This document shows, one piece after another, positions 3,391-49,200 of a stretch of DNA of 64,000 nt. The DNA comes from Unio delphinus (Eukaryota > Mollusca > Bivalvia > Unionida > Unionidae): contig JAQISU010000098.1 of NCBI GenBank assembly GCA_029339505.1, positions 1,559,501-1,623,500 on the forward strand. Reading direction: 5' to 3'. The notes beneath the pieces were generated by a model that was given only the letters and a program-made list of their open reading frames with translations, was not told the DNA's origin and did no database searches. The translations under genes were made by a program, and so were the position numbers. Every line of letters starts with the position of its first letter. Within the stretch, counting starts at the first letter, position 1.

Positions 3391-5462
3391 TAGGGTTGAA
3401 AGAAAACATGATGAAACTTAATCTTATGAAATAGGTATGAAAGAAAACATGATGAAACTTATTCATATGAAAAGGGTTAAAAGAAAACATGATGAAACTT
3501 AATCGTATGAAATAGGGATGAAAGAAAACATGATGAAACTTAATCTTATGAAATAGGGATAAAAAAAAACATGATGAAACTTATTCATATGAAAAGGGAT
3601 GAAAGAAAACATGATGAAACTTATTAATATGAAAAGGGTTAAAAGAAAACATGATGAAACTTAATCGTGTGAAATAGGGTTAAAAGAAAACATGATGAAA
3701 CTTAATTGTATTAAATAGGGATGAAAGAAAACATGATGAAACTTAATCGTATGAAATAGGGTTGAAAGAAAACATGATGAAACTTAATCGTATTAAATAG
3801 GGCTGAAAGAAAACATGATGAAACTTAATCGTATGAAATAGGGTTGAAAGAAAACATGATGAAACTTAATCGTATGAAATAGGGATGAAAGAAAACATGA
3901 TGAAACTTAATTGTATGAAATAGGGTTGAAAGAAAACATGATGCAACTTATTCATATGAAAAGGGTTAAAAGAAAACATGATGAAACTTAATCTTGTAAA
4001 ATAGGGTTGAAAGAAAACATGATGAAACTTAATTGTATGAAATAGGGTTGAAAGAAAACATGATGAAACTTATTCATATGAAAAGGGTCAAAAGAAAACA
4101 TGATGAAACTTAATCGTATTAAATAGGGTTGAAAGAAAACGATGAAACTTAATCTTGTAAAATAGGGTTGAAAGAAAACATGATGAAACTTAATTGTATG
4201 AAATAGGGTTGAAAGAAAACATGATGAAACTTATTCATATGAAAAGGGTTAAAAGAAAACATGATGAAACTTAATCGTATTAAATAGGGATGAAAGAAAA
4301 CATGATGAAACTTAATCGTATGATATAGGGTTGAAAGAAAACATGATGAAACTTAATCGTATTAAATAGGGCTGAAAGGAAACATGATGAAACTTAATCG
4401 TATGAAATAGGGTTGAAAGAAACCATGATGAAACTTAATCGTATGAAATAGGGATGAAAGAAAACATGATGAAACTTAATTGTATGAAATAGGGTTGAAA
4501 GAAAACATGAAGAAACTTAATCTTATGAAAAAGGGTTGAAAGAAAACATAAAGAAACTTAATTTTATGAAATAGGGTTGAAAGAAAACATGATGAAACTT
4601 AATCTTATGAAATAGGGTTGAAAGAAAACGATGAAAGTTAATCTTGTAAAATAGGGTTGAAAGAAAACATGATGAAACTTAATTGTCTGAAATAGGGTTA
4701 AAAGAAAACATGATGAAACTTATTCATATGAAAAGGGTTAAAAGAAAACATGATGAAACTTAATCGTATTAAATAGGGATGAAAGAAAACATGATGAAAC
4801 TTATTCGTGTGAAAAAGGGTTGAAAGAAAACATGATGAAACTTAATTGTATGAAATAGGGTTGAAAGAAAACATGATGAAACTTAATTGTATGAAATAGG
4901 GTTGAAAGAAAACATGATGAAACTTAATCGTATGAAATAAGGATGAATGAAAACATGATGAAACTTAATCGTATGAAATAGGGTTGAAAGAAAACATGAT
5001 GAAACTTAATTGTATGAAATAGGGTTGAAAGAAAACATGATGAAACTTAATCGTATGAAATAGGGTTGAAATAAAACATGATGAAACTTAATCGTATGAA
5101 ATAGGGTTGAAAGAAAACATGATGAAACTTAATCGTATGAAATAGGGTTGAAATAAAACATGATGAAACTTAATCGTATGAAAAAGGGTTGAAAGAAAAC
5201 ATGATGAAACTTAAATGTATAAAATAGGGTTGAAAGAAAACATGATGAAACTTAATTGTATGAAATAGGGTTGAAAGAAAACATGATGAAACTTAATCGT
5301 ATGAAATAAGGATGAATGAAAACATGATGAAACTTAATCTTATGAAATAGGGTTGAAAGAAAACATGATGAAACTTAATCGTATGAAATAGGGCTGAAAG
5401 AAAAAATGATGAAACTTAATTGTATGAAAAAGGGTTAAAAGAAAGTGAGGTGAAACTTAATC
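3391..5462. repeat. 41-bp minisatellite, about 50 copies
   Basis: The unit is GGTTGAAAGAAAACATGATG followed by AAACTTAATCGTATGAAATAG. Variants alternate (AATCGTATG, AATTGTATG, ATTCATATG, AATCTTGTA), and some recur together in the same order, for example near 3990-4260. That points to higher-order amplification of multi-unit blocks. There is no long ORF and one strand is strongly purine-rich. Confidence 0.97.
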
Positions 5463-10600: not shown

Positions 10601-13600
10601 ATTTCAATAAATCACTCAGCTGTCATGTTTTGTAAGACTTGTTGCCCTTTTTACATGAAACTTATTGTATTGTATAATACAATTTTTTGACTGCAATGAG
10701 TCATCCAGTTTTCTCTGGAATACCATGAAGCTTTGTACATTTCAGGATCATAATGTTAAGATGTACATATTAACAAAATCGGTATCCCATTGTTAGCGTG
10801 CAAGTCAAAAGCACGTCGACAAAAGCGTGCGCCGACAATTGCATGCAAGACAAAAGCGCACCATCAAAAGCGCAAGGCAAATTTTTTTAAAGTCAACATG
10901 TCAAATAAAAAAGATTCATACATATAAATAATTATACAATAGAAAATAATTAGGTATTTAAATAAGGTTTACTATTATTGAAATGAGTTACAGTATATTA
11001 TGTCTATCACTGTTCAAATTGAAACATTATGTGCGATTCCATGCAGATACATGTATTTGATCAATGGTACGTTGCCGTATGTTGGAACCAAAGCTAGCAG
11101 GTGTCAATTAAGTCTGACGTACTTTGATTTTGATGCGTCAGGCTGTCTAAATCCTGCTCAATATCGTTCGATCATAATCTCTACATGATCTTGTTCCTTG
11201 CAAAAGTGGTCAACCAGCTTGTGGACAGATAATGAAAGTCTATTGTCTGTTGAAATGACCGATGCCATGCCTCAACCGAATTATTAGTGCGTGGTAAACT
11301 GTCATTTACATGGTCACGCATGTTTCACAGATTAATAGGAAATAATTCGGATTTCCTTGATGGTTTCTTCTTTGTCTTCCCACGTAGTTGTCTTCCCAGT
11401 AATCATTGATTGACGTAAGTTCCGGAGGGCTGCTTTCCACCAACTCATCAAAAGTGTCTGGAACATCTTCAACTGGAACAAAACTGAGGGCTAAAAGCAT
11501 TTTGACATACATGTAAACATTTTCATCATCAAGGTAAACCTCCGCTAAATAACATTCTTGTACTTTGCGCCACAAACAGTGTCCTAGATGGAAGAAGCAT
11601 CCTGCTTACTGTGCTTTTGGGAAGATGGTTTCACAAGCATTTTGAAAGGCTTTCTCGAAATTGGCCATAATGCTAGCAGGATTAAGACCAGGATGCAGTT
11701 TGAGAGTTTTTTGCATGATGCTTTCATAGCCATGCTCTGTTTTCTCCAGCAGCAAAACGTAGACTAGGGGATAGGCCGAGTTGTTAATTAAAGCATGGAT
11801 AGTGAATAGCTGAGTAAATAGTGTCAGCACAACTTTTATAGTACCATCGATAAACCAGTTATCATTTTGCTGTAGAAGGGTCAGATTTTCTTTCGTTCCG
11901 AACATCAGAATGCGAGCATCATCATCTTCATCCAAATCCCACAGAAGAAAATTAGTGTCTCTTGTAGATTTTTTGCAGAGATTCTGAAATAGCAATATTG
12001 TTTAACAAAGTTATGTTGAAGTATGGAAGATCATTTTTCTTTCTCTGTCGTTTGATCTCTCTCTGTGAAGCCATATACGATAGCAAATTACACGCTGTCT
12101 GCAATGAAATTCCGAGAGAACTTTGCTGAATTATTTTTTCCTTGGTCTCTAAACGGTGTTCATTGCACTTCGACGGATCTCTGCTACGGTCTTCTTCACT
12201 TTGTTGCTCGCCGGATCTGGAGCATGGTTATGCTCAGAAAGCACAGTGCTTGTGTGCACTGCGATCACTTTAATTTGCCCTTTACAATCACATTTACAGC
12301 ATCTCCATGATGCACTGCCATCGGCATTTACTTGGTCTTTTCTATATCGATATCCATCATTTATCTTCTTTCCCCTTCTGTGACTCAGTCTTTTTCATGG
12401 TTAGATAAGATTTTAAAATTTTCACAAAATAAATTTGGTATTTATAGTTGTCTAGGCTTATACTGCATAAATGCGCATCATGTTGTCTGCTCACTGAAAA
12501 CAGTTATTCAAACTATTAGTTTTTTTCTACTCAATATTAAGAGTGTATACTTTGATGTCAGCTCACTGGAAACAGTGATTCAAGCTATTAGTTTATTTCT
12601 ACTCAATATTAAGAGTGTACACGCTTTGATGTCTGCTCAAACTGATTAAAACTTTTAGTTTATTTCTACTAAATATAAAGATTCTACACTCTTTGATGTG
12701 TGCTCACTAGAAAATGGCATATGGAGTTTATGCGGCATGCTTTTGACAGGACGCATTGGACGGGCATATTTCACAGCGCGATTTTGACCTGCATGCTAAC
12801 AACGAGGTGCCGACAAAATCACTTTGCTCCCACAATTTTTGTTAGAGTTATTGCCCTTTCTGTACTACAGCTGAATATTATGTAAGACACTTATGAATGC
12901 ATCTTGTTGTGCACATTTTAGCTGTGCTGGTCAAGTACCAGAAGAGCTTATGAACTGGCCTTCGTCTGTCTATTTTCCATTTGTGATTGTTATTTCTCAT
13001 ATTTTTGTCCCAAGGTATATTTAGTCCTAAAGAAAGATGGTGCCACCACAGTGGCCATCTTGAAAATCTTGTTATATCTACCCCTCCTGATCATATTTGG
13101 TCATTTCCACAATGGTACTGATTTATATCCAACATGGCTGCCACAGTGGCTAATTTTAAAATCTTGAAATATGAGGAGTGGTTTTAACATGCAGGAAGTC
13201 AAAGAAGAAATGATTTTATGCTGAATTCCTGGAAAAACATTTACTATATAGAGCATCAGTGCCTTCAAGGGAATCTTGGTTGGTTTGAACATTACTTTTT
13301 GCACATTTTTTTCTATATCTTAAAGAGGAAATGGGACAAGGACACACTGAAGCAGTCAACCTGGCTTGGCCTGGGCAGGTATAGATCGTGCAACCTTTGG
13401 ATCATGAGTGCAGTTCCCCCAGCCCCAATCAAGGCAACTAAATTTCCTTCCATCCATCAGAACTTTGTAGTTCTAGTCATGCTAAGAACTTCTGAACAAA
13501 TTTGTTTATGGGGTATTACATTAAGAACACCAAGGTCAAGTTTGTTTTTCTTGGCAGCTGTGGCCACAGCTGAACACATTTGTATTTGATTGTTTTATAT

Positions 13601-16600
13601 TGAAAGGCAGACACATGCAGAGTTCAGTGATGATTTACCAAATAGAGTAGGCATCAGCCTATAGGCCGCACACCTTTTAGGTACCCAGCAAAAGTGGATC
13701 AAAATAATATCAATAGGAGACAATTTGCAAGAGGGGCCCTAAGATTTTAACTGCCAAAAGGCCTCCACAGGTTTTAATTTAGCACTGGCAAAGTTCTCAT
13801 TATGATTCACCCATCTGTAGACACCAGGAAGATACTTACGCTCCTCTTCTGGTAATCATATACTCATTATTCCCACTATGAAAACCATGTCATATGGACA
13901 ACGTTCTTCTGCATACCAGGGCACAGCAACATGGAATGAATTGTCCATAGAAATTAGACACAATAACACAGTGATCCCTTTCAAGAGTGCTCTTAAAACT
14001 CACCTTTTTCGACGGCAAGAAAAGAACTTAAAGACCTAATAACATCTCCTACCTTAAATATTTTCAGCATGTTTTTATGTTTTCTAAATTTCATTGCTGT
14101 TTTTGTTGTTGTTCTTGTAGTCATATTATATATGTTGTAAAGTGAGTATAGCTTCTAAAGATTAGGTGCTATACAAAATCCTCATTAGTATTATTATTAT
14201 TCAGACATGGCATGTCAAGTACTGATAAGTTATCAAGGATTTTCATCTTTTGCTTTGACAGCAGCATTATGTTAGCAAGTACTAATACTGTAATTATGTT
14301 AGCAAATACCAGTACTCTCACTATGTTAGCAAGTACCAGTACTCTCATTATGTTAGCAAGTACCAGTACCCTCATTATGTTAGCAAATACCAGTACTCTC
14401 ATTATTTTAGCAAGTACCAGTATTCCTTATGTTAGCAAGTACCATACTGTAATTGTTAGCAAGTACCAGTACTCTCATTATGTTAGCAAGTGCCAGTACT
14501 CATTATGTTAGCAAATACCAGTACTCTCATTATGTTGGCAAGTACCAGTACCTTCATTATGTTAGCAAGTACCAGTACTCTCATTATGTTAGCAAGTACC
14601 AGTACTCTCATTATTTTAGCAAGTACCAGTACTCTCATTATATGTTAGCAAGTACCAGTACTCCTTATGTTAGCAAGTACCATACTGTAATTATGTTAGC
14701 AAGTACCAGTACTCTCATTATGTTAGCAAGTACCAGTACTCTCATTATGTTAGCAAGTACCAGTACTCTCATTATGTTAACAATTATCAGTACTCATTAT
14801 GTTTGCAAGTACTAGTACTTTCATAATGTTAGCAAGTACCAGTACTCATTATGTTAGCAAGTACCAGTACTCATTATGTTAGCAAGTACCAGTACTCTCA
14901 TTATGTTAGCAAGTACCAGTACTCATTATGTTAGCAAGTACCAGTACTCATTATGTTAGCAAGTACCAGTACTCTCATTATGTTAGCAAGTACCAGTACT
15001 CATGTTAGCAAGTACCAGTACTCTCATTATGGAGGGGTTTGCAGGTTAAATCGCACCAGAGTCATACACCAAAGATTTTTAAAATTGGTACTAACAGCTG
15101 CCTCGCTAGACCATGGCATTAAGAGGTTAGTGTTAAGACTGGTGGCCCTGGTGTCAGGATAATATGACTAGGTGGGACATCATGCTACATGTCTGGGATA
15201 TAGTTTTTTTATGGGAAAGCAAGAGGATACTGTTCAGTTTTTACAAATACATTTACAGATTTCTGCTTGAAACCTTTTTATTCCAACACTTTAAAAAGTT
15301 TATGAAATATTGTGATTGCATCTTCTGTAGTTTTTCATAAAATCTAGACCATTAATTCCTCATGATGTACTTGCTTTAAGTTCCAACCCTAAGCTCCTTT
15401 TTTACACACACACACACACAGAATGGATGACCATTGATAGAATTTTTAAGGCATGAAAGATAAATTAAAATAAGCAGCAGACATTGGTCTCTGAATCTAA
15501 TCCAGCTTCAAGAATTTGCTGATGGGAGAGATCTCCATTTCAAATTAGTTATGTCATCCATTCTGTACAGGTATGTAATACTCATTTATGTGTGATTCCC
15601 TACTAGAAAGGTCACTTTTTCAAGGTCACTTAACTGTTGCAGAAGGGGTGGCCTTATAACCAGGGGACCACTGTATTATCACTTCCATGCTACTGAATTT
15701 GCAAGGAATGCAAGTTAAAAGTATCAGAAGCCAGTCACAATTTCATTTTCAGATAGATTGGAGTATGTATAAACTGTAGGATCAATTGATAGTTGCCTGT
15801 TGATATTATGATGAAATGATTGCATGAGACACTGCTTTGTTTATAGTAAATTGACATCCATTGTAGAGTCTTTGAGTGGGTATCTAAATATTTTTCAAGT
15901 TATGGCCCAGTGACTAATGGATGGATCGAATGACTATTGTCAGCTACATATGTTTATTTGTCTTTACTAATGTCAGCAACATATGTCAATTTGTATTTAT
16001 TAATGTCAGCTACATATGTCTATTTGTCTTTACTCATCTATTTGTCTTTACTAATGTCAGCTACATATCTATTTGTATTTACTAATGTCAGCTGCTTGTC
16101 TATTTGTCTTTACAAATGTCAGCTGCACATAGATATTTGACTTTACTAAAGGCAACTGCAAATTTTTTGTCTTTAATGAGAAATATGTGTCTATATTTGC
16201 AACTCTACCACTTCATCGAGCTAGTTTTACATGTAAATGCACAAGTTACAAAGTAAGTGAGCTTATCATGTGATCGGTTATTTTCTGGTACCCTCTCAAA
16301 TACTTTTTGCAATCTATGCTAGACAATCAAAGATGGCTATCATACCACATCTACTTCAAAGTGACATGTCATATTGACTTGAGGTCAACAACATGAGGTC
16401 AACAATATTGTGCTTTGCAGCTGTTGGCTCTTGTCAGGTTGATAAATATCAGCAGTAATGACAGCTGGTAATCATCATAGTTACAGAACATGACAACATA
16501 GAAAGGCAGTAAACATAATCAGAATAATATCTTGTATTGATTAAATTAGGATATATTCTTGGCATTTTGAAATAAATGTCTTTATCAATTAAGAAATAAA

Positions 16601-19600: not shown

Positions 19601-22600
19601 ACAGTTTTATTTCTAATACTTTAATGATATATTTGATATGTGTCAGATATGTTAACATTGTGACCAAATGGTATTTTGTTATGATATTTGGGCAAAATTA
19701 AATTTTTTGAAAATTTCAGATATTTAAACATATCTTTGGTTATTTACTAGTGTATGTTGATGTGTCAACTACATTTATTATTTTGTAAGATTGCAAATCG
19801 TCCTTAGATTTTCAGGAGAAAATATTTTCTGTTTGAATTTTACATAATTTCTCAGATCCACTAAATATTTTCTTGTTTTTTGAATGAATTTGTTTTTGTT
19901 TACTGGCCCTCTCACTTAAATATCTTCCCCTAATGCTGGCATCACCCTCAAAGTTTCCATTCTTGTTACATAAGTAGTGTAGGTAGTAAATTCATTGTCG
20001 GCAAATCTCAAACGTTAGCACACTGTCTTTCATAGGGTATCAGTTTCACATGTAAACTTAATCATCATATATTTAGTTACAGATTTAACAACTGTAACAG
20101 TAGATTAGACAAATTCTAACTATCACACTTAGGAATCAAACCTGTTTTGTCTCATAATCTGGCACACATACCACTAGACAGACAGGTCTCAATCAGTTAG
20201 GCGGCTTACTAAGTAGTCTCGTGTATATATATCTAGCTAGATGACTTATACAACAATTATACATATATAGCATATTCATCTAATATAAGATACCAACCAT
20301 TGACTTTTTTTGGGGGTGGTGGCTGATCTTCCTTTGAAATATCTTGTTTTATTTTATTTCAAGATAATCAATTTTTTTTTGTTGTTGTTGTTGTAATTTA
20401 ATGTATATAATATATTATTCTTTTCCTGTTAGAGCATTCTATTTTTCTTGTTCCAGAACATTATATGGCTGTTCCCTGATTCGGGAATTTGTAATACATG
20501 CCAGACATATCCGTTAGAACTGTTTTGCTGTATATGATTCATTTATATTGACTTTATCTTAAATATAAGACGTATGTTGCAGCAGGGGTAAAAGTACCCT
20601 GGGGGACTTCTTTGAACAGTATAATGTAACCTCTACTCTACTAGGCTTGTATTTAGAGTAAACCATTTAGCTTCATTGATAATGAGGGATTCCCAGCTGT
20701 GATTTTTAAAAAGAGGAAAGAAAACTGAAATAGTTTCTTTACAAATTAAAATGTTTTCAGGTAGCTAAGGCACTCCTCTAATAAATAATAAAAGGGAGTA
20801 ATATCCAGGTTTGATTGATCTCTGCAAGTTAAATCTCTCTACAAAGTAATGCAGCCAACTTTAAAATATAGCCAGCAGGCACATGTACAGTTATGTGATA
20901 TGTAGTTGATGTCTGCATTACTGACTGCAGTTTAGGAAAATGAAAAAAATAATTCCATAGCTATGCATGATTTCAAAGTTTCATAAAAGACAAAGTGAAA
21001 AAAAAATATACAATTTATGTTTCCAAGGTTCGATACAAGCATGTAAGTTTTAGAATGACTAAACTGCTTTTGATGGAATGAATATATGACAACAGTTAAA
21101 AAGTATTTAAAAGTTTGTGATAAACAACAGTATTATAACAAAGGAGTAATAATATATATATGTGTGTGTGTGAGTGTGTGTGTGCATGCGTGTGTGTGCA
21201 AATTTCAAAACCAAACAGAGTTTAATGTTTCAAGTACCTATTAAACTTAAGTAGTCATAGAGTGACATGTTTGAAAATTTTAGGATGCCAGACTCAAGTA
21301 ATTTCATTAGTACTTTCAAGACTGGACTATTGTAACTCAATTCTGTCTGGTTCATCACAATATTTACTCCAGAAACTTCAAAAAGTTCAAAACACAGCTG
21401 CACGGATCATCTTTAGAGTACCTCAATCAGAGCACACCTCACCACTGCTCTGTACCCTACACTGGCTATCAATTCGATACAGAATCAAACACAAAATTTG
21501 TTCTCTGTGCTATATTTCAATGACAGACTCCAGTCCAACATACCTATCCAGCCTCACCCATGTGTATACACCAGCTAGATCCTTATGCTCTTCTTCTGAT
21601 AATCGTATACTCATTGTTCCCAAGGTGAAAACAAAGTCATATGAACAACGTTCGTTTGCACACCAGGGCCCTTCGTCGTGGAACGAATTGCCCATTGAAA
21701 TTAGATACAAAGACACAGTAGTCCCTTTTAAGAATGCTCTCAAGACTCACCTGTTTCAACTGCAGGGACAAACTTAGCGACCTAATCATGTTTTGTATCT
21801 TATATGTTTTCAGCATGTTTTTATGTTTTCCAATTTCATTGTTTTTGTCATTTGTTGTTCTGTAGTGTAGTCATATCATTTTTGATGGTGTAAAGCGCTT
21901 AGAGCTTCGAAAGATTAGGCGCTATACAAAGTCCTCATTATTATTATTAATAATTTGGTTGCCCTAGACTTTCAGAGAAAAAAATTAGGTAAGAAATTAA
22001 TTCTAGAAGGCGAAAAATAATTGAAGGTTTCAGTTAAGGCAAGCTAAAAAGAAATTAGAATAAAAGAATAAGGCCTTGATTAACAGTATATCAGTAAATC
22101 TTAGCTGATCACCACCATGTCACTTCTGTCCACATAGGTTCAAGTCTCAGACTCGGCCAATATGGGTATGTGAGAAGATTTGCCAGTAGCTACCCAAGGC
22201 TTTGGGGGTTTTCTAGGTTCTTCCTCCACCCATTATACGGGCTGCCCCTATATAGCTTATCTTGCACTGAGAAATTTGCATTAAACCCCACACAAAAATT
22301 AACAACAGCATATATTGCCTGGCTTGAAATTCACATACATGGCTGTAAGCTTCTTTTCCTTCTGATTGTATTAATTAAACGTTAACCATATATTTATTTA
22401 TGGCAGTTTGTCTTGAGCAATTTTGCTGCCAAAACAATTGTCCATATTTTTCTCCACATATGTATTTTTCAGGATTCATACCTTTAGATGAGGTTAATTG
22501 CACAAGTCATGTATTAGACTAACCATTTATAGGATATAACATCAGTCATGTATTAGACTGATCGTTGATAGGATGTAACACTAGTCATGTATTAGATTGA

Positions 22601-25600
22601 TCGTTGATAGGATGTAACACTAGTCATGTATTAGATTGATCATTGATAGTATGTAACACTAGTCATGTATTAGATTGATCGTTGATAGGATATAACACTA
22701 GTCATGTATTAGACTGATCATTGATAGGATATAACACTAGTCATGTATTAGATTGATCATTGATTGGATATAACACTAGTCATGTATTAGACTGATCGTT
22801 GATAGGATATAACACTAGTCTTGTATTAGACTGATCATTGATAGGATATAACATCAATCATATATTAGACTGATCGTTGATAGGATATAACACTAGTTAT
22901 GTATTAGACTGATCATTTATATGATATAACACTAGTCATGTATTAGACTGATCATTGATAGGAGATTGATCATTGATAGGATGTAACACTAGTCATCTAT
23001 TGCACTGACTATTGATAGGATGTAACACTAATCATGTATTAGACTGATCATTGATAGGATATAACACTAGTCATGTATTAGACTGATCATTGATATGATG
23101 TAACACTAGTCATGTATTAGACTGATCATTGATAGGATGTAACACTAGTCATGTATTGGATTGATCATTGATAGTATGTAACACTAGTCATGTATTAGAC
23201 TGATCGTTGATAGGATATAACAGTCATGTATTAGACTGATCAATGATAGGATATAACATCAGTCATGTATTAGACTGATCGTTGATAGGATATAACACTA
23301 GTCATGTATTAGACTGATCATTTATATGATATAACACTAGTCATGTATTAGACTGATCATTGATAGGAGATTGATCATTGATAGGATGTAACACTAGTCA
23401 TGTATTAGACTAATCATTGATAAGAGACTGATCATTGATAGGATGTAACACTAGTCATGTATTAGACTAATCATTGATAAGAGACTGATCATTGATAGGA
23501 TGTAACACTAGTCATGTATTAGACTAATCATGGATAAGAGACTGATCATTGATAGGATGTAACACTAGTCATGTATTTCACCGACCATTGATAGGATGTA
23601 ATGCTAGAAATGTATTAGACTGATCATTGATAGGATATAACACTAGTCATGTATTGGACTGACCATTGATAGGATCTAACACTAGTCATGTATTAGACTG
23701 ATCATTGATAGGATATAACATTAGTCATGTATTAGACTAACTATAGTCCAGTCTTGAAAGTACTAATGAACACACAAGTGTTTTAGTGACATCAACTGAA
23801 AGATATTTGTGAATGGAGCTGATGCATCTCAGCACAAGATATGCAGCCTTGCATATGTTCATGACATGTTGGTGCAATGTGAGAGTACTGTCCAGAGTAA
23901 CATTTAGGTTTCGTACTGACTGTGAATTTAAAGGTCAAATGAAACGATTTTATATGAGTTATATGATTTCTTTAAAATGTTGTACAGTTTTGTGTTTAAA
24001 ATCATTATTAACGTTTCCCCGATTGAAAAATATGATCATACCCCATTTAAATCGATCAAAATGATTGGGTACATATTTCCCGCCATAATATTTACATCGC
24101 TTACTTCCCTTAGCTGATGACGTCACTTGTGCCACAACAAGCTTTGTTTACAAGCAAGTTTACCTGTGTGAATCGATAAGCAGTGAAATGGTGTATTGCG
24201 TCGCTTTTAACTGTAAAACTGAGTCAGGTCAAGGGGTAGGATTATTTGAATTTCCGAAACACGAAAAGCGGAGAAAAGTTTGGATTTCCCGAATAAAAAG
24301 GAAAGATTTTAGTCCATCGAAAACGCTTTGTGCAAAGCACTTTACCAACGACCAGTTTGTTGTTGATCCTTCATTAGCAATGATAATCGGCTACAAATTG
24401 AAAAAACTACAGCTAAAACGAGATGCAATACCATCAATTTTCGATTTTAAATCGAAAAAACAAGGATGTGAAAACGCGGATTCACTCAAAAAAAAACAAC
24501 GACAATCGAGGGCAGTAGCAAAAAGAAAAAGAATGGAAGTAAGTAATTTTTTTTTCCTTTCTTAAATTTATAATTGAATTGTTTTACTAATCATTATTTT
24601 TTAAAATTAAACTGTATGTTCAACATTAATATGAATCTATAAATAAACTAGATCTCTCAAATTTCACCCAAGAACAATGGGTTTGTATGTATGAGATAAG
24701 CACAGCAGGAGAGTCTGGACTATGTCTAAAGATATAATCACTAATTAATACAGTAAATAACTGCTCATTCATTATGATTAGCATGAATAATTGCTATCCA
24801 CACAATTAACAATTTCAGTAATACAAAGATTTTTTTTAGTAAATTCCTTTATAATTTATTTTATTTGTTGCTGAATAAAGATGTTAAATTATTTTATTTT
24901 ATTTTTTAAAATTTTTTGCAGACACTTGCACAAGTATTGAAGGATTCATCTGATAGTGATCTAATGAAAACAGTTGTTGGAACAGCTTTAATTGTAGACA
25001 TGTGCTGTACATGTGAAGGGCGTTACAGATGGTATAGTCAGCCTATGTCAGGAACTATGCTTTTAGGCAATTTGATTTTATCTGGAGCAATCATGTTTGC
25101 AGGAGCAAGTCCAACAACTGTACTGAATGTGTTTATGCATTAAAAAATTCAGTGCTTTTCACAGAGAACATATATGTCGATACAAAATGCATATATTGTT
25201 CCCATTGTATCATCAGTTTGGCAATTAAGTCAGTCCTACATGTTGGATGAAATCAAAAACAGAGGGAGTGAAATTAAACTTGGCGGAGATGCACGCTGCT
25301 TTTCTCCAGGACACACAGCAAAATATGGGTCTTACAGCATCATGAACCTTGAAAGTGGGAAAATATTGGATCTTCAACTTGTTCAGGTAAATTTCCTTTC
25401 AATATATATATATATGTACCTTTTGTGCCTGGAATATAGTTTATTGCTTGCCGCATTGCATTTCAATGAGAATGTAAATAGAGGTCAGATGGTGACATTA
25501 GATGGCAGTCACCAGTATCGAGTGTCCTTCCCAAAATGGCGAAAGGGAGAAGGAGTTGCAAAAGAAATTAAAACCAGACAAACATACAATAAGTTATTTG

Positions 25601-28600
25601 TTTAATTTTTTACAAAAATTATAGCATTCACATCTAACAATCTATTCTTCTTGTTTCAAGTAATAAACAGTTTGATTTGATTGTTTTGCAGGATATATTG
25701 ATGACTTGTTTGATGAACTTCTGATCAGACGGGAAATGTACACCAGCTATTCAGAAGCCTTTGATGCCAGACAAAGTTAGACCAGCCCCTCTGGCACAGG
25801 CATTGCCAAGACAGTCAAAAATTGAAATAGTCGATAGACATATTTCAAGATTCAATTAAAACTATAATTAAAATTATTTGTGTTCAGTTTTGTCTCTTTA
25901 AGAAGTTAATTACGATATTTAAATCCACAATATTGTTGTGATGGAAATTTATCTCTTATCGCTTTCACAACACATGATGGCAAGATCTTTCTTTGCTTTT
26001 TACCCAGTCTTTGGTAAATCCATCGCACAAATCTTCTATAAGCTATATATCTGTACAGTCTGTAAAAAAAAAAATTCTTAAAATCATTGAAGAGGTATTA
26101 AAATTGAATGTGGCACATAGATGTACAGATGAATAATCATTTATACATGTATATATATTCATTTTAAATTGATTTGATTTCATTTTTATTGTTGCTGTCA
26201 TGTTCATCATCTATTACTACATTTATTTTGCATTACTATTAAAACCTCTATAAACAGCTGTTGTTTTGTGTTTTATTTCTACAAATTAAGAAAACTATAC
26301 ATAAAAGGGTAAAACTTGATTTGGGGGGAAAAAGAGACCGGGTGTTTAGTGTTTACTAGAAGGTGCAAACGAACTATTTAACTTGAAGAGTTATTCCTTA
26401 ATAAAACAAATGTAAAAACACTTACTCGTGTATATTTTGATCATTTAGTCCATGTTCCTCCAAATACTCATAATAAGATGTTTCCAAAACATGTTCATTC
26501 AAACAGTTTGCTTGGAAACCATCATGCTCTGTTATGCAGGAAATTCCTGCTTCTTCCATTTTTCCATCCACTATATTCGTGTCTTTGCAACACTTTGACT
26601 CACTTCTTGTCTGCATTGTCATGCAGTGTTGACAAGAACACCTGCAACAATTAAAAGAATATACTAAAGTAGTGTGCCAAATCAGTTTATTCTCATTAAA
26701 AAATTACCTTTTCCAAGATCTACATATAAACTGTAAAATGCACTAACAAATTGATCAACATTATATTTGTGGTGACAATACGGATGAACTTTTTAAGTTA
26801 AATTTTTTCAAGCAGATGTGAATAAAAATATGCACATTATATACAATGTAAGGTCCTTAGACACATGCAGGGAAATAGTCTGAAAACAAAACATCATCCC
26901 CCCCCCCTTTTTAAACTCTTTTTGAAACGAGCAAAACAGTAACCGAATACTTTAAAAAAACGAATGCATTTTGTTTATAATATAAGTATTTGTTAGAAAT
27001 CTTACCAAAGATTCACTTCATCAACCTCTTCGTCAAGTAAGGAGTCTTCATTCTCTTCGGTCGAAAGGTGACTGTCGTCCGAGTCAGACTCAGAGCTTGT
27101 GTCTCTGTTTGAAACATTTTGTACCGAAGATAATCTTGGTTCAAACATATATGGTGTTATTGACGGTTTCGTCGAAGTCAAGTCTGGCATTTCTTCACAA
27201 TCTGTCGAACTTTCATCAGAAACATAATCCATTTTGTTATCTTGCTACCCACGCCGTATATTGTTTACAATTGTATGGCACGTATGACGTCAGCAGAAGA
27301 GGTAATTCAGGGGAAGTAAGCCAGGTCACATTTGCGCACCGTTCGACTTTTGATGACCGGGTACGTGCACCCGACATTGATTTAATTAATTTCATTAGGT
27401 TTTTTTTACTTCCAAAATAATAATCAATCATTTTACTTATTAAATTTGAAGATCAAAAATCGTTTCATTTGACCATTAATGTTGGTGTTGCTGATATTTA
27501 TTGTTTTATGTAAAGGATGTGAATGAAAAAGTCTTTGTGTTGTAATCAGAACAGCCTCAGTTTTATCATCATTCATCTGCAGCTTGTTACATGTCATCCA
27601 TGATTTCACATCAGAAATGCACCTCTCTAATCCTTGGATGGTAGCATCAACTTCAGTTGGGTGACTAGATTTGTATATTTGGGTGTCATCAATGTACAAT
27701 TGGTAAGACACTGGATGATGATCAATGACACTTGAGAGCATCCGAGTGTATAGAATGAAGAGAACAGGTCCAAGAACAAATCCCTGTGGATCACCACAAT
27801 ATAGATCAACTGGACTGGAGTGTATTCCATTTGCAGATACAATTTGTGTCCTTTTGACTAAGAAGGACTTGAACCACAGTAAGGATGTATTGTGAATGCC
27901 AAATACATGCTGGAGATGGTGAAGTATATCATGGTCTAATGTGTCAAATGCTGCAGTTAAATCAAGGAGGGTGAGGACTGTAATCTTTCCGCTATCCAAA
28001 GCAAAGAGAATGTCATTAAATACTTTCAGAAGAGTAGTTTCAGTGCTGTTTCAAGGACGATATGCAGACTGTACATTGCTAAAAAGACTGTTTGATTTCA
28101 GATTAGATACAATTTGGGTTAGAACAACTTTTTCAAAGATTTTTTATATGAACGGGAGATTAGAAACTGGGTAGTAGTTCTTTAAATCGATATTGTCGAG
28201 TGTTAGTTTCTTCAGCAGAGGCTTAACAATGGCAGTTTTAAAAATTGATGGGGTTTCCTGGGATGAGAGAGAGATATTAATAACATCAGTTAGTGATAGC
28301 AATATTTGGTCTAAGTACTCAAACAGCAATGAAGTTGGAATTGGATCAAGTTCATATGACTTTGGTGCACTCTTCATCACGATTGTCCATACTAAATCCA
28401 TAGAGACAGGTTCAAATGCTGCTAATGGTTGTCACTGAAATTGTGTTGTCAAGCTTATCTCTAATGGTTTGTAATATCAACAGTTTTTGTCTTACCACTT
28501 GTTTGTGAATTTGACCTGGTGTATATTGTTGTCCATTGGTATGTGTATACTTGTTTAGGATTTGTCCATTGATCTGTGTTTACATTTATACACTTTTGAA

Positions 28601-31600: not shown

Positions 31601-34600
31601 CATGTGAAAACTTTACAAGAATGTTGTCATAGCGTCAGTTTACATTAAACTAACTACTGTATATACTTGCTTATAAGGAAAGTTAAACTGCCAACTGCAT
31701 AGACCCATATTTGCCATCACATAATGCACTGGAAAAACTCGGTCTGTGCAATTTGTTAGGAGTAATCAGTAAAACATATAATATTGACTCTGATGGGCAG
31801 GTACATTATGCTGTGGTAGATCAGGATCTTTGTTGTTTGCAGTTTGACTTGACTTATAAGACAAGTTCAGCTGCCAACTGCATAGACCCATATCTGCCAT
31901 CACATAATGTACTGGAAAAATTTGGGCCCATTTACGTGGTATGATCTTTTAGTGTTTCACGGAATGGACTCGTGTATTTGGTATATATAGTATGTTCCCT
32001 GGAATTGGTCCAGTAAAATTATATAATCTGTAGTATGATCATTGAATTGACCCATTTACATGGTATGATATGTATGTAGTATGTTCCATGGAATTGGCCT
32101 ATTTATATGGTATGACCTGTAATATGTTCCATGGAATTGGCCTATTTACATGGTATGATCTGTAGTATGTTCCATGGAATCGGCCTATTTACATGGTATG
32201 ATCTGTAATATGTTCCATGGAATTGGCCTATTTACATGGTATGATCTGTAATATGTTCCATGGAATTGGCATATTGACATGGTATGATCTGTAATGTGTT
32301 CCATGGAATTTGCCTATTTACATGGTATGATCTGTAGTATGTTCCATGGAATTGGCCTATTTACATGGTATGATCTGTAATGTGTTCCATGGAATTGGCA
32401 TATTGACATGGTATGATCTGTAGTATGTTCCATGGAACTGGCCTATTTACATGGTATGATCTGTAGTATGTTCCATTGAATTGGCCTATTTACATGGCAT
32501 GACATATAATATGTTCCATTGAATTGGCATATTGACATGGTATGACCTATAGTATGTTCTATGGAATTGGCATATTGACATGGTATGATCTGTAATATTT
32601 ACTTTACTGATGGAAATATGGTAATAATTGCCCCAACAAATGTCAGATCACTTGATTATACAGTGAACATAGCTGCCAAATATCACTGAATATGAGTGTT
32701 CATTTTTGTGTTAAAAACCTTTTTTTTTTATATGAAAAAATAGAATTAATTATATCCTTGCAATTTTTTGGTTTAGAATGAGCACCTCATTCCATTCTGA
32801 GAGTAAATGTATTACATGTCTATAGGGATATAGTTCTAAAATATGATTGGTTCATTAAGAATAGAGAGGCAGCCATGCCTTTGGTTTTAACCATCAGATT
32901 GGATTGCACAAAGTAACTGTCACTATCACTGTATCTCATCTTCATAATATTCAACTTGTAGGCATGTCAAATAGCAAAGCAGAAGATTCAGAATTTTCTC
33001 CAGCAAATAAAAGAAAACAGATCTGGAAGGACAATAATGCTGTCATGTTTAAATTTGTGAAACCATCTTGTAAATGAGAAAATGTTGCAAATTGTGTAAT
33101 TGGGATTTTGCTATTGGGCATGGAGGCATGCATGAGATAAAACAATGAAAAAGCTAATAAACATTAGCTTGCTGCTTCACCATTAACAAAACAACTTGAA
33201 CTCACAACATTTATAAATATGAGAGAGAACCTTGATGTAATTTGATTGGAAGTTCATTTTAATAAAATTTCTTTTAGAAACAAACCTTCCACTTTTCAGT
33301 TGTGTGTGTTGCTTGCGATTTATTTCATGCACATTTTCCAGACAGTTCAATTTAAAAAATATAATATAGAACACAATGTAAATCATTAGTTAAAGATGGT
33401 GCATTGAAATCAAGAATGATTGGGGGGGGGGATGTGGCAAAGGCTCCTATAAACTGCTTGTGTCTGAGTGTGAGTTTGTTGCTCTCTTGCACATTCTGAA
33501 TGGGCACCTGAATGGAAAAGGATGCCTATTCAGAAGATGCAAGAGTGCAACACATGCATCTTTGACATTAAATAAGTTACTGTCCTACTTTGCTGATGGT
33601 TGCAGATGTTGCAAATAGTTACCTAAGTATTAAAGTGTAAAAAATCAAAAAAATTTCATGAAAATCAGTATTTTTGTCATAAGCAGTCAGTATTTTTGTA
33701 CTATGGAGTTGGCAGCTATGCAGTGAAGTGCAGTTGAAGATCTGGCTGTACTTTTATGCAGTGTTTGAAGATCTCATTGATATGGACAAAAGTACATTTT
33801 CTGTATGTCAGAGTCTTGCAATACATAAAAACCCAAAGATAAACTGGCCACAAAAAAATCTACACAAATCAGTCTATCCATACCACATGTGTAATAATTC
33901 TGATGAGATGCTGGTTTTCACTGGCTTTTTTTTTTCTTTCTGTCGGGTCAGAAGTTGATACATTTCTTCTAATCGACCACAGGGTTTCAGATGAGTTGTA
34001 AGTCCTAATGGGACAAACTATTATAATTGATTTCAGCAGGAAAACCTCTAATTTATCTGCTCTTCCTTCACCAATCTGAACACACGCGCTATTAAAAATT
34101 CTGCCAAGAATGAGACTTTTACTTTGAGTGTTGTCCTGTTGCAGAAGGAGAAAACCACATGTAATGATTTCAGTTTGCATGCAGGTGGAAATGACATTGA
34201 TCAGCTGTTCTCAGACTGATGAGATGAATAGAGTGTGAAATGTCATTCTACCTGTAACAAATTATCAAATCAAGAGAAGAAATTACCCAGTCTTTATCAT
34301 CTGCAGAATTGTATTGATTAAAGTCATTTTACAACAAAGATAGAATGGCATTATGTGCAGTAAATTTTCACTGTCACAATTGATTGATAAATTGACTAAT
34401 TGTTGGAAATTTTACTGGTTTGTAAATATTGCACTGTTAAATTGTTTAAAAAGTTTTTTGAATTTTATGTTCATCTGATTCCTTGCCATGTACTGATACC
34501 CATTGGTAAAGGACAAATATAACAAGTTCTAATAAGGTAATACATTTCATTACACCATCATTTGACAGAGTGTATGGGAATTTTCCTTTGTCCAACACCT

Positions 34601-43200: not shown

Positions 43201-46200
43201 TAATTGTACAATACTTGCTCATTCGAATGCTCTTCATGGAATTCATGTTCAATTGACTGATATTTGAGTTATAAATTTTTTTGATATTTATTGCTAGTTC
43301 AGATGTTATATATTGTTAGGATAATTAGAAAGCAGGTTATTAATTGGCATGGTCTCGAAATCATAATAACTTTCATCATTAATACTTTTCTTAGCAAATT
43401 GAAAAGTCTTAAAGATATAATATGAAAATTTACTTATTTATGTCTGTTTTATTTATTTCTCTGACAATGACCTTTTTAGGTGCCCATTTTCCAGATTGGG
43501 TCATATTCTTTGCCTTATAATGACAGTGGTAGCTGGAGTGTTATCTTTATTGTTCTGTGGAGCCATAGGAATATTTATCTGCTACATCATCTGCCTTATA
43601 CAGGTAAGGACCCTACAGGTTAAAACCAATCATCTACCTTATACAGGTAAGGACCCTACAAACTAAAGAATTATATATCACCTGTCTTATACAGATAAGG
43701 ACCCTACAAACTCATAAAAAAAGAAAGAATTTGTTTTACAAATTTTAGATTTATGTTTGGTTTACTTACAGAGAATTTTTTTTTTTGGGAAATTATCCAG
43801 TAAGCATAGTTCTAGCTTGCAAGGCTGAAGAACAAGTGACCTTATGGTTTGGCGCTAAATTATTGTGTTATACATCAACCAACAATTGCTATGTTAAACT
43901 TCTTCGCAAAACCCATTGGACCGATTTGGACCAAATTTGGGAAAGAACATCATGGCCTGAAAAGGGTTTTTAAATTTATTCAGATAATGTCAACCCACCA
44001 TCAATTATAGTCACAATTTCCAAAAATATTAAAAACCCTTTAAACAATGTTTCAAAATCTTTCTGTTTGATAAAGAATCGTTGCAGGAACACCTTTCACT
44101 TCAATTAAAATGATTCTGATATTAGGAGTATAACTACAATAGAAAGTCATAAAGACAGAATAATCAACTTCTCCTAAACCACTTAATAGAATTTAATCAA
44201 AGTTAATATAAAACATCTTGGAATGAAGACTTGCAATTTTTTTATATAAAATGTCCACCGTAAAATATGACAACAGTTACTAAAAATAGAAATCTACAAA
44301 AATTTCTCAATAATTGTTCTGCAGAATTTGACCACATTTGACATTGATTTTTTTAAAATTTAAAACAACTTGAAATAACTTTTTTCAAGGACTATTAAAT
44401 GAGAATGAGGACATGTATAAAACATGTTGATCCACTTTGAGATATGGCCACTGTTTATTTCCAAACAATAGAACAACAGTTAGATGACATTTTTTTATTG
44501 TATGTGACAGAAGGCATCAGACATTGAGGACCTTCAACTTTGTAAAACTTATGTTGATTTGCCATCCAGTATGGCTACAATTGCTAAAAATAAATAAGTT
44601 CTTACTCTTCCTCAAAGTAATTAATATAATTCGACCAAATTTGACAGAAAACATCCAAGCATAGATGGTTTTACAATAATGCTTACCATTGCTAACAATA
44701 GAATTGTGTTTGACAGAAATGATGCCAATCAATCACGGATATGGACATCATTACTTAAAATAGAAGTGCCTTGAAATTGCTTACAAAGAAATATTAAACA
44801 GATTTCTGGAGCCACAGTTGGACTCTTAATCCTATAATTGTGAGTTTGTAACCCTACCAGGCAATCAGAAATTGACTGACTTATTATGTCTTTTTGGAAA
44901 GGGACTTAGCTCCCATTTCCACGGAATGATATGGCCATTAAATGTAGTAAAACTGCTGTTAAAATGAAATAAGGAAATGGATAGAATTTGTCAAGACTTT
45001 ACAGAAAGCATCCTATGAGGACCTTTCTGATTATTAAAATGTTGCTGATTCACCATAAAATATGACCATTGTTAATAAGAACAGAAACCTCAAAATAACC
45101 TTTTCAAAGCCACTTAACAGAACTTGACCGAATGTTTCTCAGAAGCATCCTGGCATAGAGGGGTTTCAGTTTTGTACAGCCTGTGCTGATTTGCTGTCAA
45201 ACATGGCCACCATTACTAAAAATAAAAAATAAAAATTTGAAATGATTTCTTGAAAACATGGGAAAAATTCAAAAAAACATGACCAAAAGCATTTTGTGCA
45301 ATGAGGACTTTTAAAATTTGTACTAATGATGCAAGTCCAGTATTCAATGTGACTCCCAAAGCTAAAAATAGAAAACCTGTTAAATGACTTTTAAAAATCG
45401 GCAGAATTACAACAAATTTATCAGATAGCATCCTGACAGATGGCTTTCAAGTTTGTACAACTGATGTGGATCTACCATCAAATATGGTAACCATACTTAA
45501 ATGAGAAACATTTAAACAACTCTTTCTTAAAAAAAACTGCTCAGCTGCAGTTGACCAAGTTTGAGAATGAACATCCTGAAAGAGGGCTAAATTATGCTAA
45601 TCCACCACTTAAGTTTAAAAAATATTTAGGCATACTTGATCTAAAAAAAAAACTGTTAAACAGATTTTTGCCAACTGTGACACAGATTTCTTTGCTGTCT
45701 GCTCATGAATTTTGTCTAAAATAGGCATCCATCAGCAGATGGTGTGATCTCAGGCCACTTTGCCCATTTCTCGGTTTTGGTTTGGTTTCTTCTCATGTTA
45801 TATAGCAACACTAATGGGTTATTTGGTACTGAGGCGACTGGAGTACTTTACTCTTAGACACAAGCAGTAGCAAATGCCAGCTGATATTGTGGTAGGATTC
45901 AGACTTAGTTGCAAGTCTAGTATACTAAGCACTTATTTTGTATTTGTTTTGTGGCATCCCACAATATAAAGAAAAGAAAGAAACCTTGGGTTACAACTGA
46001 CATACTTGATCTGTGCGACAAGTGTCAATAGCTCAAGAAGATGAAATCAGAAGTAGAAGGAGCAAAACAATACAGGGAAATCAACCAGGTTATCAAGAAA
46101 AGCATGAGAAAGGCAAGGGAGACATGGATTGAAGACCAGTGTAAAGATATAGAAAACAATCTAAAGAAAAATAATAGCAATAAAGCATACCAACTGGTGA

Positions 46201-49200
46201 AAGACCTGACCAGTGTAAAACAAGGACGCTCCTCCATCATTCAAGATAAGGGAGGGAAATGTCTTACAGAAGAACAAGACCTTCCTAAGAGACGGACAGA
46301 ATACTGCTCAGACCTGTACAACCACAGACCTAAAGGGGACCCAGACATACTCAACACCCCATCAGTGACCAACACTGACAACTACCCCATCCTCTGAGAA
46401 GAAGTAGAGGCTGCAGTGAAAGCATTGAAATAGGGAAGGCAGCAGGAGTAGACAACATCCCTGCAGAACTAGTCCAACAAGGGGGTGAAGCCATGATAAG
46501 CACCCTACTAACAATCTGTAACAAGATCTGGCAAACTGGGGAATGGCCAACACCATGGACTCAGTCATTCATAGTAACTCTCCCGAAAAAAGGCAATTTG
46601 CAGCAATGTCAGAACTATCGTACGATCAGTCTTATATGCCACCCAAGCAAAGTCATGCTAAAAATCATATTAAACAGACTGAAGCTGCTGGCAGAGGAAA
46701 TCATAGCTGAAGAACAGGCAGGCTTCAGACCAGGGCGAAGCACAGCTGAACAGATTTTTAACCTGAGAATACTATGTGAGAAATACCTCCAGCACCAACA
46801 AGACCTTTATCATGTCTTTATAGATTTTAAGAAGGCGTTTGACAGGGTATGGCATGCAGCCCTTTGGTCCAACATGAAGCTGTACAACATCAACGCTAAC
46901 CTCATCAAAGTCATAGAAAGCCTTTACAGCAAGGCCACCAGCGCAGTATGCTTCAACGGTCAAATAGGAGATTGGTTTAGGACAACTGTGGGAGTCAGAC
47001 AGGGCTGCTTGCTTTCACCTACTCTCTTCAACATCTTCCTTGAAAGAATCATGACAGATGCACAGGAAGACCATGAAGGAACTGTCAGTATTGGAGGCAG
47101 AATAATAACGAATCTGCGCTTTGCTAATGACATCGATGGCCGTGCAGGAAATGAGGAGGAGCTAGCTCAGTTGGTGGAAAAACTGGACAGGACAGCTACT
47201 GCTTTTGGTATGGAAATCAGTGCAGAGAAAACCAAATTGATGACCAACAACACCAGCACTGACATCATGATTAGTGGCCAAAAACTGGAAACAGTTAATA
47301 GATTCAAGTACTTAGGAGCCATCGTGGCAGACGATGGATCGAAACCAGAAATATTGTCCAGGATTGCGCTGACAATAACAGCAATGGTAAGGCTGAAGAC
47401 AGTTTGGAAAGACAGAAACACCTCAGTCAGCTCAAAAATCTGACTGATGCGCTTCTTGGTTGCATCTGTATTCCTATATGCCTGTTAGTCATGGACCCTC
47501 ACAGCGGATCTCGAAAGGAGGATACAACCTGTTGAAATGAGATGCTTTCGAAGGTTGCTTTGCATTACATATAGAGATCATGTCACAAATGAGGAAGTGG
47601 GAAACAGAATTAAGCAAGCCATTCCCTATGAAGAGCTATTGACCATTGTGAAAAAGTGCAAAATGAAATGGTATGGACATGTCACACGATCAACAGGGCT
47701 TGCTAAGACAATCATGCAATGTACTGTGCAGGGAGGGCGAAGGAGAGGAAGACAGGAAAAGATGGGAGGATAACATCTCAGAGTGGACAGGTCTGAAGCT
47801 GAGTGACACAGTGAGAGTATCAGAGAACAGATTGGAATGGAGGAAGCTGGTTGTCAGGTGCCCCAATGGTCGGCAAGACTAAGGGATAGATAGATAGATC
47901 CCATAATATAGGATGGACATTAAAATGGCTGATAAAAATTTAATTTGAAAATAGAAATAATAAAAAAAAATGCAGAAAATGACTAAAATGTTTAAGATGT
48001 GCATTGTCAGGCTAATGACTTCTGATACTGCTGCTATCTTACAGTCTCAAGTAGATGATGGAATAGACGGGTTAACAGATATAAGAAGGAAAAAAGAAAG
48101 AATTCAGATTTTAAAAAATTAAAAACTTAATAATGAAATATTCAATTTAATTTTTTTATAACCAAGCAATAAATAAATGCAAGTTATCAAGAAATATTTT
48201 CTTTTTGCACTCGCTCACAGATTAGAGTCGGTAATATTGAAAGCTGAATATTTTGTGTTATTTGCATTTTAAATCTTTTTCTTTACAAGCTGTTGTACAT
48301 ACTTTTGAAAAGCACATCTGTTCTAAAGTTTTAAAGAAATATTTGAAAATAAAATATTTATTCTTTCATTGTGCCTGCAAAGGCAATACTCCATTATTTC
48401 TAGGATTTTATCTTGTTGATAATATTGTATTAATGTTTTCATTGATTTCTAGTTGTCTGTCATCCACTGCAGGTGGGAGCTTTTTCTACTTTTTACTTCA
48501 AATTATTGTTATTTGAAATAATTTGGGTTTTTTTCTTCTTCACACAAGCATTTTATCTTGGAATTTAAACAGTACCATCGATTTTCTGTTTTGTTATGAT
48601 CACTCATTGGCAGACTTATACTTTCTGTTAAATTCTTCAATTTGGGTCCTAACAAGCATTGAATTATGGTGCTTTAGTGTTTAATTAACTCCAATTTGCA
48701 GCTGCAGTCTAAACAAAAGAATCCAGTGACAATATTTTGATAGTATATGTACTAATTGGTATATCTAAAAATCACTCCTACACTTGTTCCAGTGTATATG
48801 GACTGTCTTGTAAGCATAGCTGTACGATCTCATAGTACATCAGTACTTTTGAAAGGATAAGGGCTGTTCTTAAATTGTAGCATGCTCACTATCATCACAG
48901 GCCTTGGGCAGAAAATGGTGTACATATATGACATTGTTTTCTTTCAGGTACTAAAGCTTTGTTACCAGTCAAGTAGAAATAATGATGCAAGATTGAAAAC
49001 AAAGTTTCATTTTTTCTTTATTCTCTTCCTGACCTGGATGTGGGTACTGATCCTTAATTCCCCAGCCCTCATCATCTGGGTCAAAAATGTACAGTAAGTT
49101 GTTTAATTACAGCATGTCTCGTTAGTAAATAACATAAATATTTTCACTTTATTCAGTTTCATTTCACACTTTAAGCAACAGCAGGGGAGGTTACCATTAC

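Follow-up and report, generated by a model that had tools for sequence, protein, structure and literature searches.

A two-gene element and its insertion site

The stretch analysed here (the window: 64,000 nt of the 2.5-Gb assembly of Unio delphinus, G000:C105:1559501-1623500) contains a TTAA-bounded element of the Kolobok type, spanning positions 23928-27479, in which a broken THAP transposase gene on the + strand faces an intact gene on the - strand for a protein related to the cytoplasmic ballast domain of the purinoceptor P2X7, here called KolX. The target site duplications of 4 bp (TTAA, 23928-23931 and 27476-27479), which are a Kolobok feature, adjoin terminal inverted repeats (TIRs) of 20 bp at 23932-23951 (+ strand) and 27456-27475 (- strand) that match at 19 of 20 positions. 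The 19-mer common to both TIRs occurs at these two sites only in the window with up to three mismatches allowed (0.03 expected). The left terminus, AG, fits the published 5'-RR...YY-3' rule for Kolobok ends. Immediately outside the element lie the two parts of one decayed non-LTR retrotransposon reverse transcriptase, both on the - strand: the upstream part at 27480-28050 (PF00078, E = 1.7e-20 for 27436-28050) and the downstream part, judged by eye, at 23741-23927. When the element is excised in silico, the reverse transcriptase reading continues across both flanks, with one frame change near the joint; the element has therefore inserted into a non-LTR retrotransposon.

The KolX gene has three exons: exon 1 (27006-27232, start codon at 27232) encodes an acidic N-terminal region; exon 2 (26426-26641), within which the W codon is completed, encodes the zinc-cysteine motifs WCSCQHC, CC and CIT; and exon 3 (25906-26059) ends in the stop codon. 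The gene is intact in this copy, with GT-AG introns, a 198-aa product and no internal stop. The original prediction that the second protein is related to the zinc domain of P2X7 is borne out: Pfam PF20478 (P2RX7_C) matches residues 37-195 (E = 3.9e-20; 73 bits, cut-off 23.5), and a search of PDB up to E = 10 returned four distinct chain sequences, all of P2X purinoceptor 7 (best E = 2.1e-7). Over about 120 residues the zinc-cysteine motifs and the C-terminal motif can be aligned with P2X7, and all seven zinc cysteines, from the three motifs by which the zinc domain is defined, align between KolX and the P2X7 chain. Unlike P2X7, KolX has no channel domain; its loop before CIT is longer, its segment before the final YxG is shorter, and its first motif lacks the proline. 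No relative was found in viral contigs with the ballast protein and the transposase as queries, nor in phages and plasmids with a second ballast protein, that of the contig described below. Two matches to the ballast protein in the phage collection (E = 6e-3 and 4e-2) were rejected as chance, since they read by eye as bacterial nitrate reductase beta chains; the records concerned, OR845564.1 and OR851486.1, are short, unannotated and filed as phage, and look by eye like bacterial nitrate reductase genes.

The transposase gene begins with an exon at 24188-24538 (donor GT at 24539) that encodes a THAP domain (PF05485, E = 7.1e-15). The N-terminal and middle part follows at 24922-25387 and a C-terminal remnant at 25444-25859, with similarity seen for 25444-25590. 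The TTAA-flanked structure with a THAP transposase opposed by a convergent second gene, as first proposed, is thus upheld. The gap of 46 bp then given between the two stop codons holds if the transposase ends at 25857-25859, an ending that the reading reaches only through a frame change. Neither the in-frame TAA at 25141-25143 that interrupts the reading nor the loss of the catalytic core had been mentioned. The body of the transposase has no match in Pfam, and its middle part none among solved structures. TTAA is also the target of piggyBac elements; no membership of that group is indicated, as the transposase reading, compared with Pfam up to E = 10, matches THAP alone.

What the transposase has lost was judged from a single contig, NZ_CAHJWD020000427.1 (G001:C427; loci L003, L006 and L007), which is 14,909 bp long and labelled as a gill symbiont of Bathymodiolus brooksi. 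The first scan of the genome-contig collection gave no relative; this one contig was retrieved by a DNA pattern search. Pieces of the window transposase align in order with its transposase (E = 1.9e-8, 3.4e-5 and 0.015), the C-terminal piece with a score of 62 where the maximum in 5000 shuffles was 50. As in the window element, transposase pieces lie on one strand and a ballast gene on the other, in the same order. Neither Pfam, above the family cut-off, nor NCBIfam has a match for the C-terminal part of this transposase. Its genes contain introns and are of the kind found in animal transposons, which makes it probable that the contig is host DNA of the mussel. Its filing as a bacterial gill symbiont is a probable contamination of the reference genome.

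Compared with this collinear transposase, only 56 bp (25388-25443) remain in the window element where the catalytic core is expected. The stretch deleted between 25387 and 25444 is the expected place of a DVWH motif and of the last acidic residue, that is, of the region of the DDE core with its C/DxxH motif; the transposase of the contig reads DVWH at approximately that place (by eye). With the core missing, an in-frame TAA and a later frame change, it is very unlikely that the window copy makes an active transposase.

Linkage of ballast and transposase genes in the Unio genome

A scan of the whole genome for P2RX7_C gave 1140 first-look candidates, and all 150 that were scored pass the Pfam cut-off; none of 14 control genomes responded to the same scan. 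Linkage was examined in 45 of the 150 scored loci: the 30 with the highest rank, for which 3.2 kb apiece was read, and the last 15 of 75 loci picked beforehand by odd rank (ranks 121-149), for which 10 kb apiece was read. In 33 of the 45, THAP or transposase sequence adjoins the P2RX7_C domain, and the arrangement is convergent in 33 of 33. Among the best 30, a threshold of E = 1e-3 placed the transposase C-terminus within 1.5 kb in 19, in every case downstream and on the opposite strand, and when four of the other 11 were extended downstream, three of them gave convergent transposase pieces at a threshold of E = 0.01. A THAP piece was found in nine of the 15 longer loci and a transposase piece of the locus's own in two more, all convergent. 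As background, these queries had no match at E = 0.01 over the remaining 60.4 kb of the window.

Both TIRs, of the AGGTCTACTAG type, stand beside TTAA in eight of the 15 longer loci, and KolX and a THAP exon lie between them in all eight; L044 has both TIRs, with one TTAA mutated. Six of the eight complete elements are 4.3 kb long and about 94-98% identical where aligned, and another, L051, shares about 80-88% identity with these six. All eight end AG...CT. None of the seven complete elements compared (L043 stood outside the comparison) aligns as DNA with the window element, and the transposase bodies of the window and of the contig described above, used as queries, gave no match in the eight at E = 1e-3. 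One locus of the AGGTCTACTAG group, L049, is matched by all four window transposase queries.

These counts bear on whether the ballast gene is a standard gene of such transposons or a host gene that the window element captured once. Free-standing ballast genes have been reported across animals, some of them called syntenic (PMC7016195), as a host origin would have it. The same convergent pair, however, recurs in groups as unlike as the window family, the AGGTCTACTAG group, the best-30 group and the probable mussel contig, and Kol0 elements with KolX are stated for vertebrates, annelids, cnidarians and sponges (PMC9587614), so that a single capture is very improbable. The favoured explanation, held with a probability of roughly 0.93, is that the window element is a non-autonomous copy, with an internal deletion, of a two-gene DNA transposon from the Kol0 lineage of Kolobok, with KolX as its second gene. 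That ballast relatives are often the second gene of THAP or Kolobok-type elements, which the original prediction had put forward as a condition, holds in Unio, given the 33 of 45 loci with linkage, the 33 of 33 convergent pairs and the eight of 15 loci with complete TTAA-TIR structure.

Several observations weigh against this explanation. The right terminus is CA, its last base one off the 5'-RR...YY-3' rule. No linked piece was found in 12 of the 45 loci, seven of which were searched over only 1.5 kb on each side. One of them, L015, still had none after extension downstream, and L039, L042, L044 and L052 have no linked piece of their own within 10 kb. At L039 the only transposase piece near the sampled copy is a neighbour's. 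That locus (G000:C31:15111716-15121715) contains two inverted KolX genes about 7 kb apart.

Spread of derivatives and the role of KolX

One derivative, in which at least exon 3 of KolX has been retained at a constant distance from the left end, has undergone very recent spread. A genome search with the initial 273 bp of the window element gave 155 first-look candidates, and 27 of the 40 scored, the window's own included, have the top score; a search with 274 bp covering exon 3 of KolX gave 148, with 16 of 40 scored at the top. Among the 40 left ends listed, 28 are paired with a listed exon 3 at 1872-1902 bp (the window's own pair at 1872), and because of this fixed spacing it is the same derivative that recurs; the other 12 may have exon 3 partners outside the scored list. 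The comparison of copies took in the left end and the exon 3 segment.

Within the AGGTCTACTAG group, L041, L042, L043 and L046 have one premature stop of KolX in common, in exon 2; between them they represent three separate insertion sites, as L041 and L042 have a flank in common. A zinc cysteine has been lost from KolX in L043, L044 and L048, and the KolX genes of L045 and L048 carry other breaks. Since one stop is common to three insertion sites, copies with broken KolX seem to have spread too, as judged from these sequences. The distributions of the stop and of the lost cysteine conflict, so that recurrence or gene conversion is possible, and some of the breaks may post-date insertion.

The left gene originally encoded the THAP transposase, and the KolX gene on the right is read towards it. 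In the proposed mechanism, transposase supplied by fuller relatives would recognise the TIRs in trans, and KolX would bind zinc and serve as an accessory factor of the transposition system. KolX would probably be usable in trans as well, because copies in which it is broken also spread. If each copy instead depended on its own KolX, acting in cis, deletion derivatives would keep the gene for that reason; the window family did retain KolX despite the loss of its transposase core, and the exon 3 segment is top-scoring in the 16 copies counted above. The AGGTCTACTAG group, with the lost cysteine and with the shared stop at three insertion sites, argues against a need for action in cis, which is accordingly judged unlikely.

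A block in which CTTACTTCCC is followed by TGACGTCA lies between TIR and start codon at both ends of the window element. At the left end (24100-24125, + strand), CTTACTTCCC occupies 24100-24109 and TGACGTCA 24118-24125; in the mirror image at the right end (27285-27320, - strand), TGACGTCA occupies 27285-27292 and CTTACTTCCC, on the - strand, 27311-27320. The local score of this mirrored pair, 42, was equalled by one of 2000 shuffles, and a second test gave none of 500. A different block, likewise mirrored, is present in L040 (0 of 500 shuffles), and no significant one was found in L051 (31 of 500); mirrored blocks are thus present in two of the three elements tested. The motifs, which are upstream of each start codon, resemble promoter sites, CTTACTTCCC being ETS-like and TGACGTCA CRE-like, and the blocks may be paired promoters, each of which would drive one gene. 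The blocks could also be subterminal binding sites for the transposase and not promoters, for they are placed symmetrically inside the TIRs and THAP domains bind DNA. The likeness to ETS and CRE sites tells against binding sites, and the result for L051 tells against both functions alike as a general rule; binding sites are a real possibility that nonetheless falls short of even odds.

P2X7, published systems and the surroundings of the element

The descent of the P2X7 domain from a transposon gene was already proposed in print in 2022 (Kojima and Bao, PMC9587614), in which Kol0 Kolobok elements are described as encoding a transposase and KolX, KolX as having the fold of the cytoplasmic ballast of P2X7 with seven conserved cysteines, P2X7 as the product of a P2X4-like gene fused to KolX, and the nanor gene as a likely domesticated KolX. 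In the literature searched, the term KolX was found in that paper only. The window element shares with Kol0 the TTAA targets and the pairing of a transposase with a second protein that has a ballast domain and seven cysteines, and differs from it in lacking the transposase core. The P2X7 tail would most likely be a captured KolX, as proposed in PMC9587614. The original prediction, whose central idea is sound in substance, had spoken of transposon cargo, a term that does not fit, since KolX is the second gene of the Kol0 lineage and not incidental to it (PMC9587614). In Xenopus, where a THAP domain is usual in Kolobok transposases, the XKol elements resemble the type described here in their THAP and DDE transposase, TTAA targets and ends starting AG; at 6.8-13.9 kb, the ten given there as full-length exceed the window element in size, and the available text of that report (PMC6004289) mentions neither "KolX" nor "second protein".

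Free-standing ballast proteins (termed ZCD) and nanor were described by Rump et al. 2020 (PMC7016195), with the same Pfam-type domain and cysteine motifs as the window KolX; one Ixodes protein joins a THAP domain (printed "TAHP") to a ZCD. Fewer than 10 ZCD genes per species are reported there, whereas all 150 P2RX7_C places scored in Unio exceed the cut-off, and ZCD are treated as genes, whereas 33 of the 45 examined in Unio adjoin THAP or transposase sequence. The strings "transpos", "THAP" and "Kolobok" occur nowhere in the main text of that paper, in whose Figure 6 a two-marker linkage of ballast genes from sponge to sea urchin is read as "ancestral synteny". There is about an even chance that this synteny is the transposon's own gene neighbourhood moved by transposition, and that deletion derivatives which carry KolX, and have promoters close to both ends, efficiently scatter an expressed ballast exon in animal genomes. 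If so, ballast exons scattered and expressed in this way would make a capture like that of P2X7 likely. The Unio counts suggest that many invertebrate "P2X7-like" genes may be transposon genes and that nearby synteny may be mobile linkage. Together with the contig of probable mussel origin, they constitute an independent, counted test of the view, published with brief argument, that the ballast domain of P2X7 is a member of a family of transposon proteins. The additions to what is in print are modest: these linkage counts, the recently spread derivative in which KolX is retained, signs that copies with a broken KolX have spread as well, the mirrored blocks at the ends and a re-reading of the published synteny that can be tested.

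The window contains other repetitive sequences. Minisatellite arrays with units of 41, 27, 39 and 43 bp are present at 3391-5462, 14265-15031, 22501-23738 and 31988-32598, respectively, and the 39-bp array stops about 190 bp short of the Kolobok insertion. A fragment of a MULE-type transposase domain (PF10551, E = 1.1e-8) lies at 11609-12001 on the - strand, and a long reverse transcriptase reading (PF00078, E = 4e-39) at 46379-47440 on the + strand, where the G+C content is raised (0.43 over 46001-48000).

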